Notes under the pieces: generated by a model
Database searches by the model: none
The model's input: only the letters and a program-made list of their open reading frames with translations
What the model was told of the DNA's origin: nothing
Shown: piece after piece, positions 1-48,259 of the stretch
Numbering within the stretch: position 1 is the stretch's first letter
Layout of the letters: the number at the start of each line of letters is the position of its first letter
Program-made: the position numbers and the translations under genes
NCBI GenBank assembly: GCA_021732845.1
Contig: JAKFUF010000128.1
Location: 1-48,385 of the forward strand
Source: Planctomycetaceae bacterium
GTDB taxonomy: Bacteria > Planctomycetota > Planctomycetia > Planctomycetales > Planctomycetaceae
DNA length: 48,385 nucleotides
Direction: 5' to 3'

Positions 1-402
1 CGTAAAAAGTTTTGACATCTCTGCGATCCGTGACAGGGCGAGGGTGATGGAACATCACCGGACGGCTTGCGCCGTGCCGCTCTTGGCCGCTGTCGAATCC
101 TGCCCCGTGGGGGCGGTTGGCCAGAGTTTGATCAGAGGCAGAGCCCGCGATTGATCACTGATTTCCAGCCCGCGCTGGCCAGATCGTCGCGGCCAGCGAG
201 CAACCTGACGGTGATGTGCCTTTCGTGGTTATTCCTTCACGGAATGAGAAAACGCCGAGTTCAGGTCAATGGCTCCCGGGTCGATTTCGCCGTGCGAGTC
301 TTTCGTGCCGGGGTAATAGCGTGGGTTTCAACCCACGTCGCTGTGTAACATGGATTGAGTCGGGCCTTTTGCAGGTCGGCTGAAGCCGACGCTACGGGGT
401 TG
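1..402. other. Gene-free stretch with repeat hairpins
   Basis: I see no convincing gene here. The stretch holds three palindromes typical of the dispersed repeats in this window. One is a copy of the ACGGC/GCCGT hairpin family around 57-80. One is a perfect hairpin with 7-nt arms GTGGGTT/AACCCAC at 321-336. One is a GTCGGCT/AGCCGAC hairpin at 375-390 followed by GCTACGG. The last has a sister copy at 39624-39646 in inverted orientation. Small open frames here lack coding character. Confidence 0.6.
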
Positions 403-27269: not shown

Positions 27270-29024
27270 GTGTTGGGCCATGAAAGTCCTCCCAATCTGA
27301 GCGACGAGCAGCTTTGCAGCCTGCTCGAAGAGTACCTGGCAGCCGTGGGCCAAAGCGATGGTGCGCGGCGAATCGAGTTGTTGGACCAATACCCGCAACT
27401 GCTGCCGTTGCTGAATTGCCTGGATGCCCTGCAACAGGTGGCCGATTCGTCCATTCCGCCAGACCTGACGCGGTTTCCGGCGGTCATCGATCCGCATCAT
27501 CAGCCGACGCTCCTGCAGTCGTCTCAGGGGAATCCTGATCCCGGGGCACACCCCGGCACCGGTCGGCCGGATGATACGCCGACCGATGAGCAATCGACTG
27601 TCGTGCTTCACAGAAGCCGGTCCGTTCCCGCGATGCCTCCCGGCCGGCAGTTCGGCAAGTACGAATTGTTGAACGAGATGGGGCGGGGCGGCATGGGCGT
27701 GGTGTACCGCGCGCGGCAAATCGATCTGAACCGCATCGTCGCCCTCAAGATGATCCGGTCGCATCAGCTCGCTTCGGATGAGGAGGTCCGCCGCTTTCAT
27801 GCCGAAGCGCGGGCGGCCGCCAGCCTGCGGCATCCGCACATCGTGGCTCTGTACGATGTGGGCGAGGTCGAAGGCCAGCAGTATTTCACCATGGACTGCA
27901 TCACCGGCAGCAGTCTGGCGGCAATCTTGGCTGACGGTCCGCTGGAGCCGGAAACCGCGGCGGTCCGGCTCGCGGAGGTCGCCCGGGCCGTTCATTTTCT
28001 GCATGAGCGCGGCATTCTGCACCGTGATTTGAAGCCAGCCAACATTCTGATGGATGAATCCGGCCATCCCTTCGTCACCGATTTTGGTCTCGCCAAGTTT
28101 TTCGATGACGATTCGACGCAGACGCAAAGCGGGGCGATCCTGGGCACGCCGAGTTATATGTCGCCCGAGCAGGCGGCGGGCCGGCTCGCGCTGATCACGT
28201 CCCGCAGTGACATCTACAGCCTGGGGGCGATTCTCTATGAAATGCTGACCGGCCGGCCGCCGTTTCGCGAAGCCTCGCCGCTCGACACGCTGGTCCAGGT
28301 CATCGAAAGTGAACCGACGCAGCCCTCGCGGCTCAACCGGGCCATCCCGCTTGAACTCGAGTGGATCTGCCTGAAGGCGCTCGAAAAGGATCCCGCCGCG
28401 CGGTACGGCTCGGCCGCAGAGTTCGCCGAAGACTTGGAACGGTTTTGCCGTCAGGAACCGACCACGGCCCGCCCCTCCGGCTGGTACCCCGCGCTGCGCC
28501 GTTTGACGCGGCGGATGCCCAACCTTGTCGCCCATCTGGGGGTGGTCGCTGCCGCCACGGTGATCGTCAATCTCCGCTGGTGGCTCGGTGGATCCACAGA
28601 CCTACCAAATCTGCCCGCGCAGATGAGCGTGTTCGCCATTTGGACCGTTCTTTGCCTGGTCTGGCAGCGGCTGCTGGATGACGAACGCTGGACGGAGAAA
28701 GCCCGTTATGGCTGGGTGCTGACGGATGTGGTGCTGGTCACCGCGACGCTGTGGCTCGCCCACGCCCCGCGGGGGCTGCTGATGGTGACCTACCCGATGC
28801 TGATCACTGGAGCGGGGCTCTTTTTCCGCGTCTCCCTGGTCGCCTTCACGACGTTCGCGACGCTGATCGCATTCTCGCTACTCGTGGTGCTGCATCCCGA
28901 AGAGGCGCGGCCGCTGCATTTCGCCTGCATCTACTGCGTCGAGGTGATCGGCATCGGCTTCATGGTCGGCTATCAAGTCCAGCGCGTCCGTGCCCTGAGC
29001 CGGTTCTACGAACGCCGCGACTGA
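27270..29024 (+). CDS. Ser/Thr protein kinase with membrane domain
   Basis: A 584-aa Hanks-type kinase. Residues 1-125 hold a planctomycete-type N-terminal segment (DEQLCSLLEEYLAAVG, YPQLLPLLNCLDALQQV) that precedes many kinases of this phylum. The catalytic domain spans about 131-395: glycine loop GRGGMGVVY (138-146), Lys160 in VALKM, HRDLKPAN (251-258), DFG (271-273), MSPEQ in the activation segment. The C-terminus has about five hydrophobic helices (from LVAHLGVVAAATVIVN on), without an obvious extracellular sensor. The GTG at 27270 is the chosen start, with no good ribosome binding site nearby. The next gene downstream is an ECF sigma factor, 1.2 kb away, so a link is only possible, not shown. 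Confidence 0.9.
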   Translation: MLGHESPPNLSDEQLCSLLEEYLAAVGQSDGARRIELLDQYPQLLPLLNCLDALQQVADSSIPPDLTRFPAVIDPHHQPTLLQSSQGNPDPGAHPGTGRPDDTPTDEQSTVVLHRSRSVPAMPPGRQFGKYELLNEMGRGGMGVVYRARQIDLNRIVALKMIRSHQLASDEEVRRFHAEARAAASLRHPHIVALYDVGEVEGQQYFTMDCITGSSLAAILADGPLEPETAAVRLAEVARAVHFLHERGILHRDLKPANILMDESGHPFVTDFGLAKFFDDDSTQTQSGAILGTPSYMSPEQAAGRLALITSRSDIYSLGAILYEMLTGRPPFREASPLDTLVQVIESEPTQPSRLNRAIPLELEWICLKALEKDPAARYGSAAEFAEDLERFCRQEPTTARPSGWYPALRRLTRRMPNLVAHLGVVAAATVIVNLRWWLGGSTDLPNLPAQMSVFAIWTVLCLVWQRLLDDERWTEKARYGWVLTDVVLVTATLWLAHAPRGLLMVTYPMLITGAGLFFRVSLVAFTTFATLIAFSLLVVLHPEEARPLHFACIYCVEVIGIGFMVGYQVQRVRALSRFYERRD

Positions 29025-29992: not shown

Positions 29993-30270
29993 AAACGTAC
30001 AAGCGTTGTGTGACGGAAGAGGTGCCGGTCGAATTCCCGCCGCGGGTTTCCCACTGATTTTTCACAGTGAGGCCCAGGCGAGAAATTCTTCCTGCTGGCC
30101 GTGGGCAGTCCTGCCCGGGGCTCAGCCGCGCACCTGCCCGCAAGCCAGAAACCAGCCCCAGAGTGGCATTTCCGGCGAAGCGGTTTCTGTCACGGTCCCA
30201 TACATCCAAACGCCGATGGTCCTGCCCATCGCGTTTTGCTCCCACGCCGAGGATCGGCCCGGAGGATACC

Positions 30271-30822
30271 GTGGAAGAACAGGAACTTTTAAACTGCGTT
30301 CGGCTGGCTCAGGCGGGCGATCACGAGGCGTTCGGCATTCTGGTGCAGACCTTCGAGCGGACGGTCTTCGCCATCGTGCTGAAGCGGCTGCGGTGCCGGG
30401 CCGAAGCCCACGAAATCACGCAGGACGTGTTCCTGCAGGTGCTCCGGAAGCTGCCGCAACTGCGGGAGCCCGAGCGGTTCTGTGGGTGGCTGCGGCGGAT
30501 CGCAGTGCGGATGGCGATCAACCGGGCGGTCCGGCGGCCCAAGGAAATTCTGAGCGGCGATGCTCTGGAAGCGGTGAATGTCGAACGGGACAACCCGCTC
30601 GACAAGATCCTGCGGAGCGAGCATGCCGCGCAGCTTCGGGACGGCCTGGGCCAGCTCCGGGAACTGGACCGGCAGACGCTGCTCGCCTTCTACTTCGAAG
30701 GCCAGTCGCTGCAGCAGATGAGCGCCGAATTCGACAGCCCCATTGGAACCATCAAGCGGCGGCTGCACACGGCGCGCAACCGGCTGCGGGACCAGTTGAT
30801 GAAGCTGCAGCCCGTCGGCTAA
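30271..30822 (+). CDS. ECF RNA polymerase sigma factor
   Basis: A 183-aa sigma-70 family factor of the ECF type. Region 2 is visible as AFGILVQTFERTVFAIVLKR to ITQDVFLQVLRKLPQL and FCGWLRRIAVRMAINR. Region 4 is LRELDRQTLLAFYFEGQSLQ to MSAEFDSPIGTIKRRLHTAR, with the recognition helix. It directs RNA polymerase to specific promoters. The GTG at 30271 is fixed by GGAGG six bases upstream (30261-30265); a longer in-frame version lacks coding character. No anti-sigma gene follows, which is common for planctomycete ECF factors that are controlled by kinases or other partners (inference). Confidence 0.9.
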   Translation: MEEQELLNCVRLAQAGDHEAFGILVQTFERTVFAIVLKRLRCRAEAHEITQDVFLQVLRKLPQLREPERFCGWLRRIAVRMAINRAVRRPKEILSGDALEAVNVERDNPLDKILRSEHAAQLRDGLGQLRELDRQTLLAFYFEGQSLQQMSAEFDSPIGTIKRRLHTARNRLRDQLMKLQPVG

Positions 30823-30921: not shown

Positions 30922-30972
30922 ACCGGACGGCTTGCGCCGTGCCCGCTAAAACCGGACGGCTTGCGCCGTGCC
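30922..30972 (-). repeat. Tandem pair of GGCACGGC hairpin repeats
   Basis: Two direct copies, at 30922-30943 and 30951-30972, of the ACGGC/GCCGT hairpin with a GNRA-type loop (read on the minus strand). They lie between the sigma factor and the ABC-NHL gene. Confidence 0.7.
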
Positions 30973-31044: not shown

Positions 31045-32940
31045 GTGTCACAACCGCTCTGGACTCTGGATCGCGTCACGTTGGCCGGTGGCAACCGGCC
31101 GCGGCTGGAGGCGGTGTCGCTGGAGATTCGTGCTGAGACCACGGTCGTTCTGGGCTACTCCGGCGCGGGAAAAACTTCGCTGCTGAACCTGCTGGTCGGC
31201 TTCGAATTTCCATCCTCCGGCCGACTGCACACTCATCTTGATAAATCTCCAAATTCAGCGGTAAAGGGCACTCCGTCGGCGTCGCGGCTGCCGCTGTACT
31301 GGGTGCCTTCAGACAACGGCCTATGGCCGCACTGGAGCGTGGCTCGGCATGTGCGGGATGTGGCCGCCAGCGGTGTGGACTGGCAGGAATTGCTGACCGA
31401 TTTTGATTTGGCACATCTCGCCGACTCCCGGCCGGACCAGTTGTCCCAAGGCGAACAATCGCGGCTGGCGATCGCCCGTGGCTTGGCGACTCGTGCCCGA
31501 GTGCTGGTGCTCGATGAGCCACTGGTACACGTCGACCCCGCGCGCATCGGCCAGTATTGGACGGTGCTGGAGCAGGCGGCCATCGAGAACGGCACCACGC
31601 TGATCGTCGCCACGCACTCGCCAGAACTTGCCATGCGGCTGGGCGGCCGGATCCTTTGTCTGCGGGCCGGCGCTGTGGTCTACTCCGGCACGATCACGGA
31701 ACTCTACGCGTATCCGCCCAGCGAAGAGATTGCGACGTTTCTGGGGCCGGTCAACTGCGTTCCCGCCAATCAGACGGAAATTTGGAGTGGTGTCCGCGAG
31801 GCGGTGCCGCGCATCGCCCGCCCCGAACAGCTTTGCATTGAACCGGACGAAGGCAGCAACATCGTCGTGGATACCGCCCGGTTTACCGGCTCAATTGCGG
31901 AAGCCACGTTGCGGCATGAATCGAGCGGCCTGGTGCGGACGTTTCTGCATCGACCGGCACTGCCGGTGCTGCGAAGCGGGATGCGGGTCAGGCTGAACTG
32001 GCTGAGGATCGGCTGCCTGCTGATGCTGTGCAGCGCGGTTCTGGCCCTCGCCGGGTGCGACAATGCCGCTGAGCCACGGCTGCCAGTGTCCAAGTTTTCT
32101 GCCGTCACAATCCCCGCCGAGGGCCGTCGCCTTCCCGCCCCGCGCGGCGTGGGAGTCGACCAGCAAGGACACCTGGTGGTGCTCGACAGCATCGGCCGCG
32201 TGCTGGTCTATGCGGAGGGCGGCAAGGTCGAGCGAAAATGGTTCATGCCGGCCTACGATGTCGGCCGGCCCGAAGGCGTGATCCAACTCCGCGACGGGCG
32301 GTTTGTGGTGGCCGACACGCACTATCATCGCGTGGTGATCTTTGACGACCAAGGTCAGGTCCTCTCGATGTTTGGGACCTATGGCAAGGAGCCGGGGCAA
32401 TTCATCTACCCCGTGGCTCTCGCCGAAGATGATCAGGGCGACCTGTACGTGGCCGAGTACGGCTCGAACGACCGGATTCAGAAGTTTCATCTGGACGGCA
32501 AGTTCATCCTGCAATTCGGTGGGTTTGGGACGGATCCCGGACAGTTCCAGCGGCCCAGCGGGATGATCTGGAGCCACGCGCCCGAGGGCAGTGTGCCGGT
32601 TGGGGCGCGGGTCTATGTGGCGGACGCCTTCAACAACCGGCTGCAGGAATTTACGGCGGACGGCAAGTTTCTGCGGATTCTGGTTTCCGCCGAGACGGGG
32701 ACCGCGCTACACTACCCGTACAGCATGGGGCAGGCCCCCAACGGCGATCTGGTCGTGATTGAGAACGGCGCGGGGCGGCTGTCGCGGTTCACGCGCGAGG
32801 GGCGGCTGGTGGGTCGCTATGGGCAGACGGGTCACAATGAGGGAGAATTTCAGGCCCCTTGGGGAGTGACGGCTGACAAACAGGGCCGCGTGTATGTGGC
32901 CGACACCGGCAACAGCCGCGTGGTGGAGTTGCAACCATGA
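31045..32940 (+). CDS. ABC ATPase-TOBE-lipobox-NHL propeller fusion
   Basis: A 631-aa fusion. Residues 1-235 form an ABC ATPase: Walker A GYSGAGKTS (37-45), signature LSQGEQ (133-138), Walker B VLVLDEP (153-159), H-loop His191. Residues 240-318 look like a TOBE domain (NIVVDTARFTGSIAEATLRH to RSGMRVRLNW). Residues 320-338 are hydrophobic and end in a lipobox LAGC (335-338). The rest (about 360-631) is an NHL-type beta-propeller with repeated R/P-x-G-V, FVVADTHYHRVVIFD, LYVAEYGSNDRIQKF, VYVADAFNNRLQEF and VYVADTGNSRVVEL. The fusion is read in one frame from GTG 31045 with no stop, but an internal ATG at 31981 before the lipobox could start a separate lipoprotein. Its stop overlaps the VWA gene (ATGA). 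Confidence 0.85.
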   Translation: MSQPLWTLDRVTLAGGNRPRLEAVSLEIRAETTVVLGYSGAGKTSLLNLLVGFEFPSSGRLHTHLDKSPNSAVKGTPSASRLPLYWVPSDNGLWPHWSVARHVRDVAASGVDWQELLTDFDLAHLADSRPDQLSQGEQSRLAIARGLATRARVLVLDEPLVHVDPARIGQYWTVLEQAAIENGTTLIVATHSPELAMRLGGRILCLRAGAVVYSGTITELYAYPPSEEIATFLGPVNCVPANQTEIWSGVREAVPRIARPEQLCIEPDEGSNIVVDTARFTGSIAEATLRHESSGLVRTFLHRPALPVLRSGMRVRLNWLRIGCLLMLCSAVLALAGCDNAAEPRLPVSKFSAVTIPAEGRRLPAPRGVGVDQQGHLVVLDSIGRVLVYAEGGKVERKWFMPAYDVGRPEGVIQLRDGRFVVADTHYHRVVIFDDQGQVLSMFGTYGKEPGQFIYPVALAEDDQGDLYVAEYGSNDRIQKFHLDGKFILQFGGFGTDPGQFQRPSGMIWSHAPEGSVPVGARVYVADAFNNRLQEFTADGKFLRILVSAETGTALHYPYSMGQAPNGDLVVIENGAGRLSRFTREGRLVGRYGQTGHNEGEFQAPWGVTADKQGRVYVADTGNSRVVELQP

Positions 32941-35900
32941 CACGCAGGAAAAAGTTCACAGAGTGGCTGACCCGCCTCCCCGCCTGGGGATATCGGCTCG
33001 CCGCCAGCTTTTTCCCCCGTCCCCGGCAACCCGTCTCCTGGCGCGACGCGTGGCCGGTGGTGGGGTTTCTCGCCGCCTACGCCGGGTTGTGCCTGTGGCT
33101 CGTGTTCTCCAAGCGGGTGATGTTTGCCCGGCCACAGATGTTCGCCCTGATGGCTGTGTCGCCGTGGGTGTGGTGGATGGCGGTGGCGGGCTACGCCGGC
33201 TTGAGCAAATCGCGGGCAGCGGTGGCCACACTCGTGCGGCTGTCGCTGGCGGGCTTGTTCGCGATGGTGCTGGCTGAGCCACGCTCGGTGCGGACGCAGG
33301 ACGTGCAAAGCATCGTCTTCTGTGTCGACGTGTCGGCCTCGGTGTCCGAAGACTCGGAAGACCAGAACGAGACTTCGTCCAACAAGGCGTTCGAGTTCGT
33401 CGCCAAGACGATCTCTGAGAAGCCCGAGAAGGATCAGGCGGGTCTGGTGATCTTTGCCCGTAATGCCGCGGTCGAGCAGCCGCCGCGGCAATCGTTCTGG
33501 CTTGATCAAAACGAGATTGTTCCGACCTCGCAGATGGACCGCGACGCCACCAACCTTGAGCAGGCGTTGTCGTTGTCGGCAGCGATGATCCCGGAGGACA
33601 CGACCGGGCGGGTGGTGCTCATCAGCGATGCCACCCAGACGGAAGGGAATCTGCAGCAGGTGCTGGGCGAGCTGAAGTCCCGCGGCATCGCGGTCGATGT
33701 CCTGCCGATCAGCTACGCCTACGACCGTGAAGTGTGGCTCGAAAGGCTGGACCTCCCGCGGATTGTAAAGCTGGGGGAGCCTTACAAGGCGACCATGGTC
33801 ATCTCTGCCCTGGGTGCCGGCAAGGGTGAATTGACGCTGAAGGAAAACGGCAAAGAACTCAAAAAGATCCCGGTGACATTCCCGGCAGGGAAGAGCCGCC
33901 AAGACATTGAAATCAGCCTGCGGCAGCCCGGCTACTACGAGTACACCGCCACGATTGACGTCCCCAAAGGCGAGGACCACGTTCCCCAGAACAACACGGT
34001 GACCAACTACATCATGGTTGCTGGCGAGGGAAAGGTGATGGTCGTCGTCGATTCGCAGGGGGATGTCCGCGACTGGCAGAGCATGGTTCAGGCGATGAAG
34101 GAGGGCGACCGCCTGGTCGATGTGGTGTCGGCCACCGACCTGCCGCGCGACCCGCTGTCGCTGATGCCGTATGATGCCGTGGTGTTCGTGAATGTCGGTG
34201 TCGAAATGTTCGACGCCGTGCAGTTGCAGGCGGTGCATGATGCGGTCCACGACCTGGGGATCGGCTTCATGATGGTTGGCGGGCAGAACAGCTTTGGCCC
34301 CGGCGGCTATCAGCGGACGGTCATCGAGGACGCACTCCCCGTTTCGATGGATGTCACGCAGAAGAAGGTCCTGCCCAAAGGGGCCTTGGCGATCATCCTG
34401 CACACCTGCGAATTCGCCGATGGCAACACCTGGGCCAAGCGGATCACCAAGCAGGCGATCAAGGTACTCAGCGCCCAGGATGAAGTGGGCGTACTGGCAC
34501 TGACGCAAAACGGCGAAGAATGGATTTTCGAACTGACGCCCGCCGGCGACTACGACAAACTCGTCCCCAAGATCAACGGGGCCGAGATTGGCGACATGCT
34601 CGGGTTCCAGAACGCCATGACGATGGGGCTGGCGGGCCTGAAGAAGAGCGATGCCTCCACCCGGCACATGATCGTGATTTCTGACGGCGACCCCTCGCCC
34701 CCGCCGCCGGCTCTGCTCAAAGCCTTTGTCGACGCCAAGGTCAGCATCTCGACCGTGGCCGTCTTCCCCCACGGCGGAAACGACATCTCCCTGCTGCGGG
34801 CGATCGCCGAACAGACGGGCGGCCGGTACTACTTCCCCAGCGACCCGGCCCAACTGCCGCAGATCTTCATCAAGGAATCCAAGACCCTCAAACGGGGGAT
34901 GATCAACAACAAGACGGTGCAGCCGGAAGCGGGGCAGACATCGCGGATTCTGGAGGGGATTGATGCCGTCCCTAAACTACATGGATATGTGCTGACAACG
35001 CTGAAGGAGCGGTTGACGGAGAACGCCCTGCGGGTCACCGAAGAGGATCAGATCGATCCAATCCTCGCCACTTGGAGTTACGGGCTGGGGAAAACCGCCG
35101 CCTTCACCTCGGACCTGTCGCCGAACTGGGGCAAGGACTGGGTCTCGTGGCAGCAGTACCGCGCGTTTGTGAAGCAACTGCTGATCGACATCTCCCGCAT
35201 CCGCCGCGATGGCCAGTTGCGGCTGTGGACGCAGACGATTGGCACACAGGCCGAAATCTTCGTCGAAGACTTCGCCCCGGGTGATGACACGCTGGAGATC
35301 AAAGCCCGCGTCTCCGGCCCGCGCGAGAAGTCGGAAACGGTGACGCTTAAGCAGGTCGGACCGCGGCGCTATCAGGCCAGCGTCCCGCTGTGGGGCCGCG
35401 GGCGCTACCAGGTGCTGGCCGCCGGGGTCGGCGGTGACCGCAAGGAGAACGCCCAGGATGGGTTCATCGTTTCTTACTCGCCAGAGTACCTGCGGTTTCG
35501 CTCGAATCCTCAGGTGTTTCGCGACATCACCACCAAGACCGGTGGCTCAGTCCTCACCGCCCAAAGCACGGCCGACGAAATCTACAATTCCCATCGCCAG
35601 CCGAAGACCAGTTCCAAGCCGATTTTCGACTGGTTCCTGATCGCTCTGGCCTGCCTTGTGCCACTGGATGTCGCCGTCCGCCGCGTGCAGATCGACTTCA
35701 GCCTGCTGCTGAACGCACTGGGCTATGGCCGCAAACCGGTTTCGGTCCCCTCGACCGCCTCCATGGGCACGCTGCTGGACCGCAAGAAACAGGTTGGTGC
35801 CGCGCTCGGCACCCGCCGCGAAGACCCACCGCCGCTGCCACCACTCTCGCCACCCACCGGTCCGACGCGTCCGCCCTCCACGGGCGGCCCGCCGGTCAAA

Positions 35901-35984
35901 CCTGCCGCTCCGGCGAAGCCACCGGAACCGGATACGACCACCTCGCGGCTGCTGGCGAGCAAGCGGAAGCGGAAGAGTGAGTGA
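32937..35984 (+). CDS. Giant VWA/amidotransferase-like membrane protein
   Basis: A 1015-aa membrane protein. The N-terminus has two hydrophobic segments (WPVVGFLAAYAGLCLWLVF; MFALMAVSPWVWWMAVAGYA, then VRLSLAGLFAMVLAEP). A von Willebrand A domain follows with the MIDAS motif DVSASVSED (about 131-139) and ATNLEQAL, ending at RVVLISDATQTEG. Then come Ig-like and class I amidotransferase-like regions (YDAVVFVNVGVE, GFMMVGGQNSFGPGGY), a second VWA-like segment (HMIVISDGDPSPPP), and a C-terminal helix (FDWFLIALACLVPLDVAV) with a Pro-rich tail. Similar proteins in planctomycetes sit in clusters with ABC transporters, but their role is unclear. ATG at 32937 overlaps the previous stop by 4 bp, so the two are translationally coupled. 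Confidence 0.85.
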   Translation: MTRRKKFTEWLTRLPAWGYRLAASFFPRPRQPVSWRDAWPVVGFLAAYAGLCLWLVFSKRVMFARPQMFALMAVSPWVWWMAVAGYAGLSKSRAAVATLVRLSLAGLFAMVLAEPRSVRTQDVQSIVFCVDVSASVSEDSEDQNETSSNKAFEFVAKTISEKPEKDQAGLVIFARNAAVEQPPRQSFWLDQNEIVPTSQMDRDATNLEQALSLSAAMIPEDTTGRVVLISDATQTEGNLQQVLGELKSRGIAVDVLPISYAYDREVWLERLDLPRIVKLGEPYKATMVISALGAGKGELTLKENGKELKKIPVTFPAGKSRQDIEISLRQPGYYEYTATIDVPKGEDHVPQNNTVTNYIMVAGEGKVMVVVDSQGDVRDWQSMVQAMKEGDRLVDVVSATDLPRDPLSLMPYDAVVFVNVGVEMFDAVQLQAVHDAVHDLGIGFMMVGGQNSFGPGGYQRTVIEDALPVSMDVTQKKVLPKGALAIILHTCEFADGNTWAKRITKQAIKVLSAQDEVGVLALTQNGEEWIFELTPAGDYDKLVPKINGAEIGDMLGFQNAMTMGLAGLKKSDASTRHMIVISDGDPSPPPPALLKAFVDAKVSISTVAVFPHGGNDISLLRAIAEQTGGRYYFPSDPAQLPQIFIKESKTLKRGMINNKTVQPEAGQTSRILEGIDAVPKLHGYVLTTLKERLTENALRVTEEDQIDPILATWSYGLGKTAAFTSDLSPNWGKDWVSWQQYRAFVKQLLIDISRIRRDGQLRLWTQTIGTQAEIFVEDFAPGDDTLEIKARVSGPREKSETVTLKQVGPRRYQASVPLWGRGRYQVLAAGVGGDRKENAQDGFIVSYSPEYLRFRSNPQVFRDITTKTGGSVLTAQSTADEIYNSHRQPKTSSKPIFDWFLIALACLVPLDVAVRRVQIDFSLLLNALGYGRKPVSVPSTASMGTLLDRKKQVGAALGTRREDPPPLPPLSPPTGPTRPPSTGGPPVKPAAPAKPPEPDTTTSRLLASKRKRKSE

Positions 35985-36045: not shown

Positions 36046-39000
36046 TCAAACCTTTGATTCCATGATTCGCAGGATGCCTCCCAGCGGCACCTGCACCCAA
36101 CTGGGCCGGTTGTTGAGTTCATAGGCCAGTTCATACACCGCTTTTTCCAGCAGGAAGACATCCAGCAGGGTGCGGATCTGCTCCTCGCCCTGGGTGGCGA
36201 AGCTGGCTTCCCCCACGGTCTTCAAGTAGCTCGACACGAACTGGGCGCTGATCGATTGGGTCCAGTACCGCGACCATTCCTGGAAGACCGGCATTTCTTC
36301 CTTCTTCACGATTGTCGCCATCCGGTTGAGCAGGATCGTCTGGCTGGCATAGTCGAACGAGCGAAGCATGCCGGCGACATCGCGCAGGGGCGAGCGTTTG
36401 ATCCGGCGTTCGCTCAAGCGTCGCGCCGGTTCGCCTTCGTAGTCGATGATCACGAAGTCTTTGCCGGTGAACAGAATCTGGCCCAGATGGTAGTCGCCGT
36501 GGCAGCGGATCCGCGCGCCGCTCAGCTTGCTGCCGACAATGCTGTTGAACCGGTCCATCAGCTCCTGTTCAAGCAGCACCAGCGTGCTGGCATCGTCCTG
36601 GGTCGGCCGTGGCAGGTCCTTCATCCGAGTGCGCAGCAGGCGGAGTGTCTTGCGGGCCAGGCCACGCATCCCCTGGTAGAGCGACCGTTGATACAGCTCG
36701 GAGAATGGCTCGGGGGAAAAGTCAGGGTTCTCAGGCGCTGACGCCAGAGCCAGATGCATCTCCGCCGTCCGTTGCCCGAGGAGCGCCGCCGATTCGACGT
36801 AGGATTCGCACAGTTCGCGAGCCAGTTTGGGCAGTGGCGCAGACGCCAAGGCGACGATCCCGCCCGTCGGGAAATCCGCAGCCACCGGTGGCTCAGTCCG
36901 CCGCTTCGTCAGCACCAGCTCAAAGAAGCGGTGGACGTTCTCCAGGGTGTAGGTCCAGGCATCCCCTTCATTCCGGGTGAACTCCTGCAGGATCCCCACC
37001 GTCGAAGTCTGGCCGCTCGCGTCGAGGTAGTCGACCGACCCGGCCACCGTCGGCGAGTGCGGGAAGTGCGCGGTTTCGGTGAGAAACCGGCCCAACTCCA
37101 TGTCGGGGTTCACACCCTGTTCCAGCCGCCGGAACAGTTTCAACAGGAGCTTGTCGCCGTAGATGATGGTGCTGTTGCTCTGCTCGGCCTTGAGAGCGCG
37201 AACTGCCAGCCGTTCGTCGCCTGAGCCACGCAGGGTACGATACGCTTTCAGAGGATGACCCACAATTTTCCCCACCCGTCCGGCGGCCCGCGCGCGTCCG
37301 CCAATCAGGTGCAGCATCAGTTGACCGAGGGCCTCTCCCCCGAAGGCGTCATACAGAACCCCCGAGATGGTTTCTGAGCCACGGGTGACTTGCAGCGCGG
37401 CGATCAACGCCGGCGAGTTGTCGCCCACCATCTGTGTGGCTTGATCACCGGTAGCGAAGCCAACGGGCAGCAGGTAGGTTTCAGGCAGGTCGCCGACATA
37501 GTCCACCTGCACCAGCAGCAGACTGAACTGCAGGGTTGAGTCGGCATCGTCGTGGAGCGGCACAACATCGGCGATGGCGGCACTGCGGATCGTCTTCGCC
37601 TTGCCCGAGAACCAGCGGCGCTTGACCAGCCACTCGGGCAGCAGCCGGGCCAGGGCATCGCGGCCCCTCGCATCCAGTACGCCCTGCCACTTGTCACGGG
37701 CCGACAGAACCGGCAGGTTGTCGGCCGAACGCACCACGGTCGGCGCATTCTCGGCCTCCGTCAACGTCGGTTCGATGCTGGGTTGAATTGAGAACCAGTA
37801 GAACCCGTGCGGCCCCAGCGTCAGCAGATAGGGCAGCTCACCAATCCGGGGGAAGGGCGTATGGCCAAACAGTTCGGTGGGCGTGCAGCCCCGGAAGGCT
37901 GAGAGGTCGAGTTCGACGAATTGGGCGAAGCGGGAGAGGTTGGCGACGACGAGGATCGACTTCCCTTCATAGGTGCGAAGATAGGCCAGGACGCGGTTGT
38001 TCTCGGGCAGCAGGAATTGCAGTGACCCACGGGCGAAAATGGGGTTCCGCTGCCGCAGCGCGATCATCCGCTTCATCCACCAGAAGAGTGAGATCGGGTT
38101 GTGCTGGGCTGTCTCCACATTGACCGCTTCGTAGTGGTATTCGTGGTCGATGATCGCCGGCAGGAACAACTGTTGGGGATTGGCCCCCGAGAATCCGGCG
38201 TTGCGGTCGGGGCTCCACTGCATCGGGGTCCGCACGCCGTTGCGGTCGCCGAGGTAGATGTTGTCCCCCATGCCGATTTCGTCGCCGTAGTAGATCACCG
38301 GGGTGCCGGGCAGCGACATCAGCAGCGAATTCAACAGTTCGATCTTCCGCCGGTTGCCACCCATCAGCGGTGCCAGGCGGCGGCGGATGCCCAGGTTGAT
38401 ACGGGCCTGTTTATTGTGGGCATAAACGCTGTACATGTAGTCCCGCTCTTCATCGGTGACCATCTCCAGCGTCAGTTCGTCGTGGTTCCGCAGGAACATG
38501 AACCACTGGCAGACTTCGGGAATCTCCGGCGTCTGCTGCATAATGTCGATGATCGGGAAGCGGTCCTCCATCTGCACCGCCATGAACATCCGGGGCATCA
38601 CGGGAAAGTGAAACGCCGCGTGACACTCGTCACCCTTGCCGAAATACTCGACAGAATCTTCCGGCCATTGATTGGCCTCGGCCAGCAGCATGCGGCCGGG
38701 GTAGTTCTTGTCGACATAGGCCCGCACCTGGGCCAGAAAGGCGTGCGTCTCCGGGAGGTTTTCGCAGTTGGAGCCTTCCCGCTCGTAAAGGTAGGGCACG
38801 GCATCCAGCCGCAACCCGTCCACCCCCATCGACAGCCAGTGGTCGAGCACCTGAAACAGGGCCTTGTGGACCTCGGGGTTGTCAAAGTTCAGGTCGGGCT
38901 GGTGGCTGTAGAAGCGGTGCCAGAAGTAAGCCTCGGCAACTGGATCCCAGGTCCAGTTGGAACGCTCGAAATCCTTGAAGATGATCCGGGCGTCTTTGTA

Positions 39001-39417
39001 TTTTTCGGTGGTGTCGCTCCAGACGTAAAAGTCGCGGTAGCGGCTGCCGGGTTTCGACGTCCGCGCCCGCTGGAACCACGGATGCTGATCCGACGTGTGA
39101 TTCAGCACGAGTTCGATGATCACCTTGAGCCCGCGCTCATGCGCCGCCCGCAGGAACGCCTTGAAATCCTGCAGCGTCCCGTAGCTCGGGTTGATGCTGG
39201 TGTATTCGGCGATGTCGTAGCCGTCGTCCCGCAGTGGCGACGGGAAGAACGGCAGGAGCCAGATGGCCGTGGCTCCCAAATCCTGGATGTAGTCCAGCTT
39301 GCTCAGCAGACCGCGAAAATCCCCAATGCCGTCCGCGGTGGAGTCGCAGAACGACCGGACATGGAGCTGATAGACCACAGCATCCTTGTACCACAGCAAG
39401 TTTGGATCTTTGCTCAC
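36046..39417 (-). CDS. treS: Trehalose synthase fused to maltokinase
   Basis: An 1123-aa two-domain enzyme of trehalose/alpha-glucan metabolism. The N-terminal 550 residues are a GH13 maltose alpha-glucosyltransferase (TreS), which interconverts maltose and trehalose: YQLHVRSFCDS, VLNHTSDQHPWF, nucleophile Asp205 in GLRLDAVPYL, acid/base Glu247 in LLAEANQWPED, Asp313 in FLRNHDEL. The C-terminal 450 residues are a maltokinase (Pep2-like): EQSNSTIIYGDKLLLKLFRR, then the catalytic loop RCHGDYHLGQ and metal-binding VIIDYEGEP. Together they make maltose 1-phosphate, the GlgE substrate; glgE is not in this window. Fusion of the two is common. The gene stands alone. Confidence 0.92.
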   Translation of the reverse strand: MSKDPNLLWYKDAVVYQLHVRSFCDSTADGIGDFRGLLSKLDYIQDLGATAIWLLPFFPSPLRDDGYDIAEYTSINPSYGTLQDFKAFLRAAHERGLKVIIELVLNHTSDQHPWFQRARTSKPGSRYRDFYVWSDTTEKYKDARIIFKDFERSNWTWDPVAEAYFWHRFYSHQPDLNFDNPEVHKALFQVLDHWLSMGVDGLRLDAVPYLYEREGSNCENLPETHAFLAQVRAYVDKNYPGRMLLAEANQWPEDSVEYFGKGDECHAAFHFPVMPRMFMAVQMEDRFPIIDIMQQTPEIPEVCQWFMFLRNHDELTLEMVTDEERDYMYSVYAHNKQARINLGIRRRLAPLMGGNRRKIELLNSLLMSLPGTPVIYYGDEIGMGDNIYLGDRNGVRTPMQWSPDRNAGFSGANPQQLFLPAIIDHEYHYEAVNVETAQHNPISLFWWMKRMIALRQRNPIFARGSLQFLLPENNRVLAYLRTYEGKSILVVANLSRFAQFVELDLSAFRGCTPTELFGHTPFPRIGELPYLLTLGPHGFYWFSIQPSIEPTLTEAENAPTVVRSADNLPVLSARDKWQGVLDARGRDALARLLPEWLVKRRWFSGKAKTIRSAAIADVVPLHDDADSTLQFSLLLVQVDYVGDLPETYLLPVGFATGDQATQMVGDNSPALIAALQVTRGSETISGVLYDAFGGEALGQLMLHLIGGRARAAGRVGKIVGHPLKAYRTLRGSGDERLAVRALKAEQSNSTIIYGDKLLLKLFRRLEQGVNPDMELGRFLTETAHFPHSPTVAGSVDYLDASGQTSTVGILQEFTRNEGDAWTYTLENVHRFFELVLTKRRTEPPVAADFPTGGIVALASAPLPKLARELCESYVESAALLGQRTAEMHLALASAPENPDFSPEPFSELYQRSLYQGMRGLARKTLRLLRTRMKDLPRPTQDDASTLVLLEQELMDRFNSIVGSKLSGARIRCHGDYHLGQILFTGKDFVIIDYEGEPARRLSERRIKRSPLRDVAGMLRSFDYASQTILLNRMATIVKKEEMPVFQEWSRYWTQSISAQFVSSYLKTVGEASFATQGEEQIRTLLDVFLLEKAVYELAYELNNRPSWVQVPLGGILRIMESKV

Positions 39418-46820: not shown

Positions 46821-48259
46821 GGTGTTCCCTGCGAAGTGTTTGGAAGTCTGCCGAACCCGGCGACCTGTTCGTACTGTATAAGATCGACGGATGCCGGGAC
46901 ACCAATCGTGCCTTCGCGTCTGGCGTTGGCGTCTTCCGATCATCCTCCAACCGGGGGCTAAGGCCGGCTAAGGCCCTCCGGCTCATTGGCTGTGCGGCTC
47001 GTCAAAAATCGACAGTTATTCTTGCCGCCGTCTTAAGACCCTGAATGAAAACTTCCATAACTCACACGACAAAACACAATGTACTCATGTATCAACTACA
47101 CTATCCGCCTGTCGTGTCAAACACAAAAACGACAGAATTTGAAAGTCGTTTCGCGTTTGTCAGCGTAAAGTCGCCTTTCGCTCCTGCGAAAGGACGCGGG
47201 CGTGGTCCGGCGCGGACAAACACGGAGGCTCTGGAATCGCGCTGTCGGCATGTCGCCAGACGTTCGCGTTCTGTTGCGGAGAAAAAGACGACTTGACGCC
47301 CACTTGTAGCGGCACGGCGCGAGCCGTCCGGTGAGCCGCTGGGACAAACCGGTTGTTTCATTTGTCAATCGGCGTGGCGGGAGGGCTTTGGTCTTCAGAG
47401 CCGCGGGCAACTCGCAAGCTGAACGTCGTCCTCTCTCGAGCACCGCAACGTTGCCGAGTCACTCCGTGACTCGAACCCAGCCGGAGTGACTGGGCGACTT
47501 TGAGACTCACCAGAGGGCTTGTGCCCTGCCGCTCGCTTTGGAGGGCAAGCCGTCGAGGAAGCCACGATGCGAGTCACGGAGTGACTCGACTACTTTGTGT
47601 TGCCTCTCGCTCTGCGAGAGGACGCGAGCGTGGTCCGGCGCGGACAGACACGGAGGCTCTGGATTCGCGATGTCGGCATTGTCGCCAGACGTTCGCGTTA
47701 TGTTGCGAATAACAAGACGACTTTACGCCCACTTGTAGCGGCACGGCGCAAGCCGTCCGGTGATGCGCTGGGACAAACCGGTTGTTTCCATTCGCCGATC
47801 GGCGTGGCGGGAGGGCTCTGGTCGTCCAGAGCCGCGGGCAACAGACGATCCGGCGTTTTCGAAGGACTTTCGAGTCATTTGCGAATCGTTCACACCCAAG
47901 CAGCGCCCACCCTTCACCGTCGCTCAGCAGGAGCTGGAGCCCTCCCGCCGCGTCGCCCGCAAGCTGAACGTCGTCCTCTCTCGAACATCGTAAAGTTGCC
48001 GAGTCACTCCGTGACTCGAACCCAGCCGGAGTGACTGGGCGACTTTGAGACTCACCAGAGGGCTTGTGCCCTGCCGCTCGCTTTGGAGGGCAAGCCGTCG
48101 AGGAAGCCACGATGCGAGTCACGGAGTGACTCGACTACTTTGTGTCGCCTTTTGCGGAGCAAAAGACGACTTTACGCCCACTTGTAGCGGCACGGCGCGA
48201 GCCGTCCGGTGAGCCGCTGGGACAAACCGGTTGTTTCCATCTGTCGATCGGCGTGGCGG
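46821..48259. repeat. Repeat array without genes
   Basis: About 1.4 kb of non-coding DNA made of repeat units. A GNRA-loop hairpin recurs at 47311, 47740 and 48189 (steps 429 and 449 bp), each followed by GCTGGGACAAACCGGTTG and CGGCGTGGCGG. A 150-bp block (47451-47600) recurs identically at 47996-48145. GAGTCAC-TCC-GTGACTC hairpins recur twice per block. A REP-like segment CCGGGGGCTAAGGCCGG is at about 46962-46978. Small open frames here are in repeat DNA and are not genes. Confidence 0.8.

Follow-up and report, generated by a model that had tools for sequence, protein, structure and literature searches.

How does one gene come to encode both an ATPase of the cytoplasm and a propeller that appears to belong on the far side of the membrane? 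The window analyzed here, a 48,385-nucleotide contig of a Planctomycetaceae bacterium (GenBank assembly GCA_021732845.1, contig JAKFUF010000128.1), raises this question at positions 31045–32940, where a single reading frame runs from an ABC ATPase through a TOBE-like domain and a short hydrophobic stretch ending in a lipobox, LAGC, into an NHL beta-propeller. An initial annotation, made from the sequence alone, considered either a genuine fusion spanning the membrane, or two proteins produced from one frame through an internal start codon at 31981. Our analysis points to a third reading, which was absent from that annotation and now appears the most likely, namely that the gene makes a polyprotein: one precursor that is probably cut into the ATPase of an importer and a propeller lipoprotein.

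One frame joins an importer ATPase to an NHL propeller

The frame (forward strand, as are all features described here unless noted otherwise) starts with GTG at 31045, ends with TGA at 32938–32940, has no stop inside, and encodes 631 amino acids. Pfam recognizes both ABC_tran (residues 22–160, E = 1.3e-22) and NHL repeats (E = 4.5e-24) in it. Based on the ABC_tran match, invariant columns and an FbpC-like fold, residues 1–240 (31045–31764) form the nucleotide-binding domain of an ABC importer ATPase. Its Walker A (G37–K43), Walker B with the glutamate (D157–E158), signature Ser and Gly, and H-loop His (H191) are invariant in 22 aligned fused proteins and in 49 aligned N-terminal halves, and H191 is nearly invariant (≥90%) across 61 aligned proteins with 38–51% identity to the window protein. 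The ATPase had initially been described as complete, which holds for these motifs but not for the Q-loop, where the Gln position (residue 89) is variously S, A, P, Q, H or another residue among the 22 fused proteins. Residues 86–91 (31300–31317) include Trp86 and Pro88, which are invariant in the 22 sequences and nearly so in the 61.

The TOBE-like domain (residues 256–321; 31810–32007) is matched by Pfam TOBE_2 at residues 259–321 with 20.1 bits, slightly under the cut-off of 21, and a TOBE_2 match at E ≤ 0.001 is found in 10 of 49 aligned members; its assignment is upheld by structure. An AlphaFold2 model of the whole protein, based on 61 aligned sequences (pLDDT 93.6), consists of the ATPase, TOBE strands at 256–319, a helix at 322–335, and propeller strands from residue 350 onwards; the lipobox region (337–340) dips below pLDDT 50, and the orientation of the ATPase relative to the propeller was disregarded (pTM 0.55). 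The N-terminal part modeled alone, using 49 sequences, reached a pTM of 0.90, with the helix at 322–336. Residues 1–323 of the model align with the ATPase of the ferric importer FbpBC (PDB ID code 9j4r; Z 26.3, rmsd 3.4, 310 residues, chain residues 1–335 of 340), and chains of PotA and MalK are also among the structure matches. The ATPase half therefore stops where FbpC stops, in keeping with the polyprotein reading, and because the FbpC alignment ends at residue 323, the hydrophobic helix starts at the natural end of an importer ATPase, without a spacer.

This helix (residues 322–336; 32008–32052) comprises 14–15 residues, directly follows the TOBE domain, and ends in LAGC (residues 335–338; 32047–32058), with Cys338 encoded at 32056–32058. 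The last TOBE strand (residues 314–319, RVRLNW) is the source of the positively charged n-region of the signal. Cys338 is one of 36 columns that are invariant along the whole protein in the 61 sequences. The propeller occupies residues 345–631 (32077–32937), as judged by Pfam NHL and by structure matches that include an NHL domain (Z 38.9) and the extracytoplasmic propeller of PknD (Z 30.0).

Fused and split arrangements among relatives

In a survey of the family, 170 genomes were searched, 127 of which match at 1e-35, and loci were fetched for 126. The gene is fused in 73 genomes from 26 genera (including the window's genome, G000, and G020) and split into a tandem pair in 39, whilst in 11 the stretch examined contains a propeller but no adjoining ATPase. 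Four are unclassed: G008, G017, and G102, where the propeller is absent from the fetched pieces, and G114, which was not fetched. The tandem class includes G185, which has a broken frame of the fused type, and G104, with 1.7 kb between the genes; G130, counted as propeller-only, is cut by a contig end inside the ATPase and is probably fused.

Genome contigs were also scanned with an alignment of the fused proteins. The best 80 of 433 relatives by score, a ranking that favors full-length matches, comprise 73 fused, four tandem, and three propeller-only loci, a share of fused loci that is not a frequency. Seventy-two of these 73 were kept (L204, with one stop like G020, was left out), and 47 of the 72 share an identical 100-residue junction stretch with a family protein, which leaves 25 further fused loci. 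According to their titles, these are 12 Verrucomicrobiota (Chthoniobacter flavus Ellin428 and 11 metagenome-assembled genomes), three Lentisphaerota (all metagenome-assembled), four Phycisphaeraceae/Phycisphaerales, and six other planctomycetes or unnamed. Besides C. flavus Ellin428, the fusion occurs in the strain records of Thalassoglobus neptunius KOR42 and Alienimonas chondri LzC2. A local accident or an assembly error is ruled out by the 98 fused frames, 17 of the 73 family ones being in single-contig assemblies, and the in-frame fusion is thus real well beyond the window. The survey of split versus fused orthologues proposed in the initial annotation turned up both states, so that its refuting possibility, orthologues that are always two genes, proved false.

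In a draw of 392 genomes from the phylum, 87 match at 1e-60, 62 of them outside the family. Four of the 62 (G215, G328, G387, and G516) are matched from end to end within a single frame, G229 has two neighboring matches, G329 has the ATPase part, and in the remaining 56 the match begins no earlier than model position 260, thus covering essentially the propeller. On a propeller tree of 127 rows (G185 and G130 were left out), the fused or not-fused label changes at least nine times, three of these changes being required by branches with strong support, and is scattered across the family. The sister group of the window's genome is a clade of 29 exclusively tandem rows, and one genus contains both states (G028 fused, G061 tandem). 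In a 61-row tree of the fused proteins, the phyla separate only in part, and lateral transfer of the fusion is possible, as far as such trees indicate.

Separate neighboring genes are found in 11 genera of the family. In G068 and G152, the two frames are in register with stops between them, and in 11 of the 38 measured tandem cases the propeller gene starts 4 nt inside the ATPase stop. Many of the separate tandem ATPases end a few residues past the same TOBE strand; the exceptions are G030, G113, and G061, which end earlier, and G068, whose ATPase is broken by stops. ATPase and propeller are even located on different contigs in G006, G019, and G031. The ATPase of G006 and G031 is accompanied by coiled-coil, binding-protein, and permease genes, and that of G019 by a permease gene, with the pair of genes encoding the propeller and a VWA protein on another contig in each case. 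As tandem and unlinked arrangements exist, the covalent link is dispensable for function.

The junction has the pattern of a lipoprotein signal

Linkers from the 98 fused frames (the 73 family genomes and the 25 loci elsewhere) were delimited around a Cys that a rule had picked out, and every fused frame had one. The Cys column is C in 98/98; the residue at −1 is Gly in 88, Ser in five, and Ala in five, and positions +1 and +2 are variable. The last charged residue before the Cys is Lys or Arg in 73/73 family and 25/25 other fused proteins, and in 49 of 55 non-fused propeller lipoproteins. In the fused proteins, it is supplied by the final residues of the TOBE strand, whose usual sequence is G-x-R-V-x-L-R, with the Gly kept in 92/98. 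The median uncharged run before the Cys is 13 residues in the family, 15 in the other fused proteins, and 14 in the 55 non-fused lipoproteins, a length that is short for a stable membrane span.

An invariant Cys with a small residue at −1 and variable positions at +1 and +2 is the pattern of a lipobox rather than that of a plain membrane anchor, and a Cys lipobox, small −1 residue, hydrophobic stretch, and preceding Lys or Arg are present together in all 98 frames. Judged by this pattern, the junction looks like a lipoprotein signal, albeit one that is internal rather than N-terminal and whose start codon is not conserved. Its distribution of charges fits the earlier suggestion that the ATPase and the propeller lie on opposite sides of the membrane. 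The window's genome encodes signal peptidase II (SPase II; two matches) and Lgt (three matches). Within genera (227 pairs), the ratio of nonsynonymous to synonymous polymorphism (pN/pS) is 0.32 for the lipobox, 0.42 for the signal, 0.50 for the preceding stretch, 0.36 for the ATPase, and 0.18 for the propeller, values that are compatible with constraint but on which we place no weight, given that synonymous sites are near saturation.

Start codons upstream of the lipobox

We counted ATG, GTG, and TTG both in the linkers and in a zone 14–36 codons before the Cys, using as a yardstick the 55 non-fused rows (38 tandem and 17 propeller-only, the latter including six genomes outside the family and G130). 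Start codons are not enriched in the linkers of the 73 family fused frames and are near background: GTG represents 55 of 157 Val codons, versus 1205 of 3454 in the rest of the frames; TTG 34 of 163 Leu codons, versus 725 of 3791; and ATG 16 of 1679 codons, versus 468 of 39,062. For the 25 outside loci, the corresponding ATG counts are 7/575 and 180/13,253.

Within the zone, an ATG is found in 14/73 family and 7/25 other fused frames, versus 35/55 of the non-fused; the rarity of ATG in the family fused frames relative to the non-fused (Fisher P = 4e-7) is not corrected for relatedness. The zone lacks ATG, GTG, and TTG altogether in 18/98 fused frames (16/73 and 2/25, C. flavus among them) and in 4/55 non-fused ones, and the lipobox is kept in those 18. 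The candidate internal ATG of the window, read from the sequence as Met313 (31981–31983), falls in a column that is Met in 10/98 fused frames, the window included. Two products by way of a start at 31981 are therefore not the general rule for the family, as far as codon counts can tell, whilst for the window alone such a start is possible.

A probable precursor, cut at an internal lipobox

Three phyla keep both the join and the lipid-attachment signal, from which we infer that a single chain is probably made and then cut in two. The ATPase and TOBE domain would fold in the cytoplasm, and the last TOBE strand (GxRVxLR) would double as the n-region of a lipoprotein signal without a conserved start codon. 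The short hydrophobic helix would be inserted via the Sec route in an N-in/C-out orientation, Lgt would add diacylglycerol to Cys338, and signal peptidase II, whose substrates have a lipidated Cys where the signal helix ends, would cleave before Cys338. The products, in a 1:1 ratio, would be an ATPase that retains a short hydrophobic tail, which might be trimmed afterwards, and a propeller anchored by its lipid and exposed to the periplasm. The ATPase would power the importer formed by the solute-binding protein and permease of the same gene set (adjacent to the fused gene in the majority of fused relatives, and on a different contig in this genome), and the propeller might partner the VWA protein, either on the periplasmic side of the inner membrane or in the outer membrane. 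On balance, we also favor the broader idea that in three phyla of the PVC (Planctomycetes–Verrucomicrobia–Chlamydiae) group a start-less lipoprotein signal marks the point at which a cytoplasmic ATPase is cut from an extracytoplasmic lipoprotein, with SPase II acting as a polyprotein-processing enzyme and one round of translation setting a 1:1 ratio across the membrane.

Several observations weigh against such a scheme. The fused frames are related, some of them nearly identical, so that they cannot be counted as independent events; in G020 the ATPase half is interrupted by a stop, and the frame of G185 (locus L249) is broken. A protein that is lipidated yet left uncut would carry an identical lipobox. 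In the open-access literature searched, we found no internal lipobox cut and no SPase II cut after 337 residues of another protein. The same searches turned up neither this fusion nor the fbcH precedent discussed below; given that subscription papers are mostly uncovered, all of this is weak evidence of absence. The other points concern start codons. In the window, a start at ATG 31981 would yield a well-formed signal, and a loose rule for a plausible ATG, GTG, or TTG start is satisfied by 54/73 fused and 46/55 non-fused sequences, although this rule separates the two groups poorly, and we gave weight to codon frequencies and the number of ATGs rather than to it. Among the 25 outside loci, GTG makes up 22 of 46 Val codons in the linker (492 of 1113 elsewhere) and TTG 17 of 67 Leu codons (242 of 1294), the latter being the sole visible excess.

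The alternative that survives best, which we nevertheless regard as unlikely, is that the fusion spans the membrane uncut. The helix would then stay in place as an anchor, whether or not Cys338 carries a lipid, and would link an ATPase inside to a propeller outside; the propeller would act as a sensor or scaffold that signals to the ATPase, in the manner of PknD. In support of this idea, the frame is continuous across the junction in all 98 cases, the extracellular propeller of PknD is close in fold, and in G000 the ATPase is still joined to the propeller even though the permease and binding protein are on another contig. However, an anchor does not require the Cys and small −1 residue kept in 98/98, the uncharged run is no longer than in non-fused lipoproteins, and tandem and unlinked species do without the link. 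In addition, the TOBE domain of MalK/FbpC-type importers sits away from the membrane, so that a helix placed right on its last strand would be expected to hinder docking. Cutting at the lipobox would explain both the invariant Cys and the species that lack a covalent link, and since a cut precursor yields the same two proteins in the fused and the tandem arrangement, we prefer it to an uncut sensor.

We are more doubtful still about internal initiation, in which the propeller lipoprotein would be translated from an internal ATG, GTG, or TTG (31981 here) and the full-length chain would be a by-product. The well-formed signal behind ATG 31981, the loose start rule, the slight TTG excess outside the family, and the tandem genes that start 4 nt inside the ATPase stop all speak for it. 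Against it stand the absence of start-codon enrichment in the 73 linkers, the 18 frames that have no start in the zone and keep the lipobox all the same, the scarcity of Met at the 31981 column, and the lower incidence of ATG in fused frames than in separate genes. Finally, neutral loss of the stop codon between neighboring genes, giving a fusion that is tolerated without consequence, is very improbable, because, although the repeated changes of state on the propeller tree, the genus with both states, and the in-register frames of G068 and G152 would suit it, the fusion persists at 38–51% identity across records of three phyla, the Cys is kept throughout, and few ATG starts remain. Neutral loss nevertheless predicts the same cut products, thus bearing on selection rather than on mechanism.

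Signal peptides are normally sought at the N-termini of proteins. If the conserved internal lipobox is what we take it to be, some lipoproteins would be missed by N-terminal searches, signal peptidase II, a drug target, would be able to split polyproteins, and bacteria could fix the ratio of a cytoplasmic to an outer protein by means of a single chain.

Gene neighborhood

The gene for the VWA protein (32937–35984; 1015 aa, with VWA and GATase1-like domains) follows immediately, and its start overlaps the stop of the fused gene by 4 nt (ATGA, 32937–32940), as had been noticed initially. In relatives, the order of genes is coiled-coil protein, solute-binding protein, permease, fused ATPase-propeller, VWA, MoxR, DUF58, and BatA-like VWA protein, with an additional EF-hand protein upstream in some. 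In the 80 loci, many of them cut by contig ends, same-strand matches were found for VWA in 73, permease in 69, binding protein in 55, MoxR in 50, DUF58 in 46, coiled coil in 38, BatA-like in 36, and EF-hand in 13. In terms of gene presence only, the permease lies upstream in 43 of the 46 family genomes that carry the fusion and have over 2.6 kb of sequence before the propeller, the exceptions being G000, G028, and G161. Six loci from Verrucomicrobiota (L207, L214, L222, L242, and L245) and Lentisphaerota (L234) are fused with the permease upstream, and no VWA neighbor was detected in them by similarity to the planctomycete VWA protein.

In the window's genome, the gene order is otherwise dispersed, with the fused gene and the VWA gene still together. 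The binding protein and permease are encoded on contig C30 (locus L092, 7619–10080, reverse strand), and no ATPase of the fused gene's family was found near them within the 18 kb of C30 that were fetched; their ATPase is presumed to be the fused one in the window. The best MoxR match in this genome (75%) is on contig C1. The proposal that ATPase, propeller, and VWA protein form one machine is thus borne out insofar as they occur together in a larger conserved gene order, but it cannot rest on the window locus alone, because the binding protein, permease, and best MoxR are on other contigs here. Upstream of the fused gene, the window encodes a Ser/Thr protein kinase (27270–29024) and an ECF-type sigma factor (30067–30822), neither of which belongs to the gene order common to relatives upstream of the fusion.

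In the PDB, FbpA-type proteins are the closest to the binding protein (E = 9e-22); in NCBIfam, the closest models are those of 2-aminoethylphosphonate-binding proteins, which it matches far under their cut-offs. The permease was unmatched in Pfam, NCBIfam, and a profile search of PDB sequences. The iron ligands of FbpA are a pair of Tyr residues. We considered iron as the substrate based on the likeness to FbpA and did not accept it, as the Tyr-Tyr pair is not aligned in the binding-protein alignments.

Comparison with known systems

The gene set resembles importers with FbpC-type ATPases (FbpABC, PotABCD, and relatives of MalK), with which it shares the ATPase and TOBE fold up to residue 323, the catalytic motifs, a C-terminal TOBE domain (by structure), and, by gene presence, a cognate permease and an FbpA-like binding protein that is adjacent in relatives. 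It differs from them in the Q-loop Gln, which is not kept, in the lipobox and propeller appended at the C-terminus, in a binding protein without the aligned Tyr-Tyr ligands, so that iron is not implied, and in a permease not recognized by protein families. The junction, in turn, resembles lipoproteins cut by SPase II in its positive n-region, short hydrophobic region, and [GAS]C lipobox, and the genome encodes Lgt and SPase II. In contrast to such lipoproteins, the signal is internal, behind a cytoplasmic enzyme, and without a conserved start codon of its own.

A polyprotein of a related kind is said to be encoded by Bradyrhizobium fbcH, whose cytochrome b/c1 precursor is reportedly made as one chain and parted at an internal signal peptide by signal peptidase I. 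Both genes would thus join two proteins that are separated at an internal signal peptide; the reported fbcH products are two subunits of one complex, whereas the products here would be a cytoplasmic ATPase and a lipoprotein released at a lipobox. PknD also offers a parallel, since it consists of a cytoplasmic kinase, one membrane helix, and an outer NHL propeller, and the propellers match in fold. However, PknD is a kinase and is not known to have a lipobox; a permanent helix without a lipobox between enzyme and propeller is not what we see behind this ABC ATPase, where the lipobox is present in 98/98.

The association of MoxR, vWA, and beta-propeller in one neighborhood recalls the MoxR-vWA-beta-propeller ternary systems, which include planctomycetes and have the propeller on the vWA protein itself, and in which the P-loop variant GXXXTAKS is frequent, though not universal, in MoxR (PMC7159879). 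The likeness ends with the propeller, which is a separate lipoprotein in our case; the window VWA protein has VWA and GATase1-like domains and no propeller family in Pfam at E ≤ 0.1. Membership of the ternary systems was rejected on this ground. The single MoxR protein examined, from the relative L041, has the P-loop GVPGLGKT and scores 43.8 bits with the bpMoxR model (cut-off 27) and 209 with AAA_3.

Other features of the window

Two copies of a REP-like hairpin element, GGACGGCTTGCGCCGTGCC, are located 70–120 nt upstream of the ATPase start (30925–30943 and 30954–30972), and further copies are found at 60–78 (+), 1362–1380 (−), and 47740–47758 (−). Allowing at most one mismatch, GGACGGCTTGCGCCGTGCC has 288 matches in the window's genome (155 forward, 133 reverse), compared with 0 for a control pattern, and on contigs C36 and C34 it occurs in regular runs with spacings of 119 and 139 nt. 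Downstream of the VWA gene, on the reverse strand (36046–39417), the window encodes an alpha-amylase-family enzyme of 1123 aa fused with a maltokinase N-cap domain, which we take to be of the trehalose synthase type.

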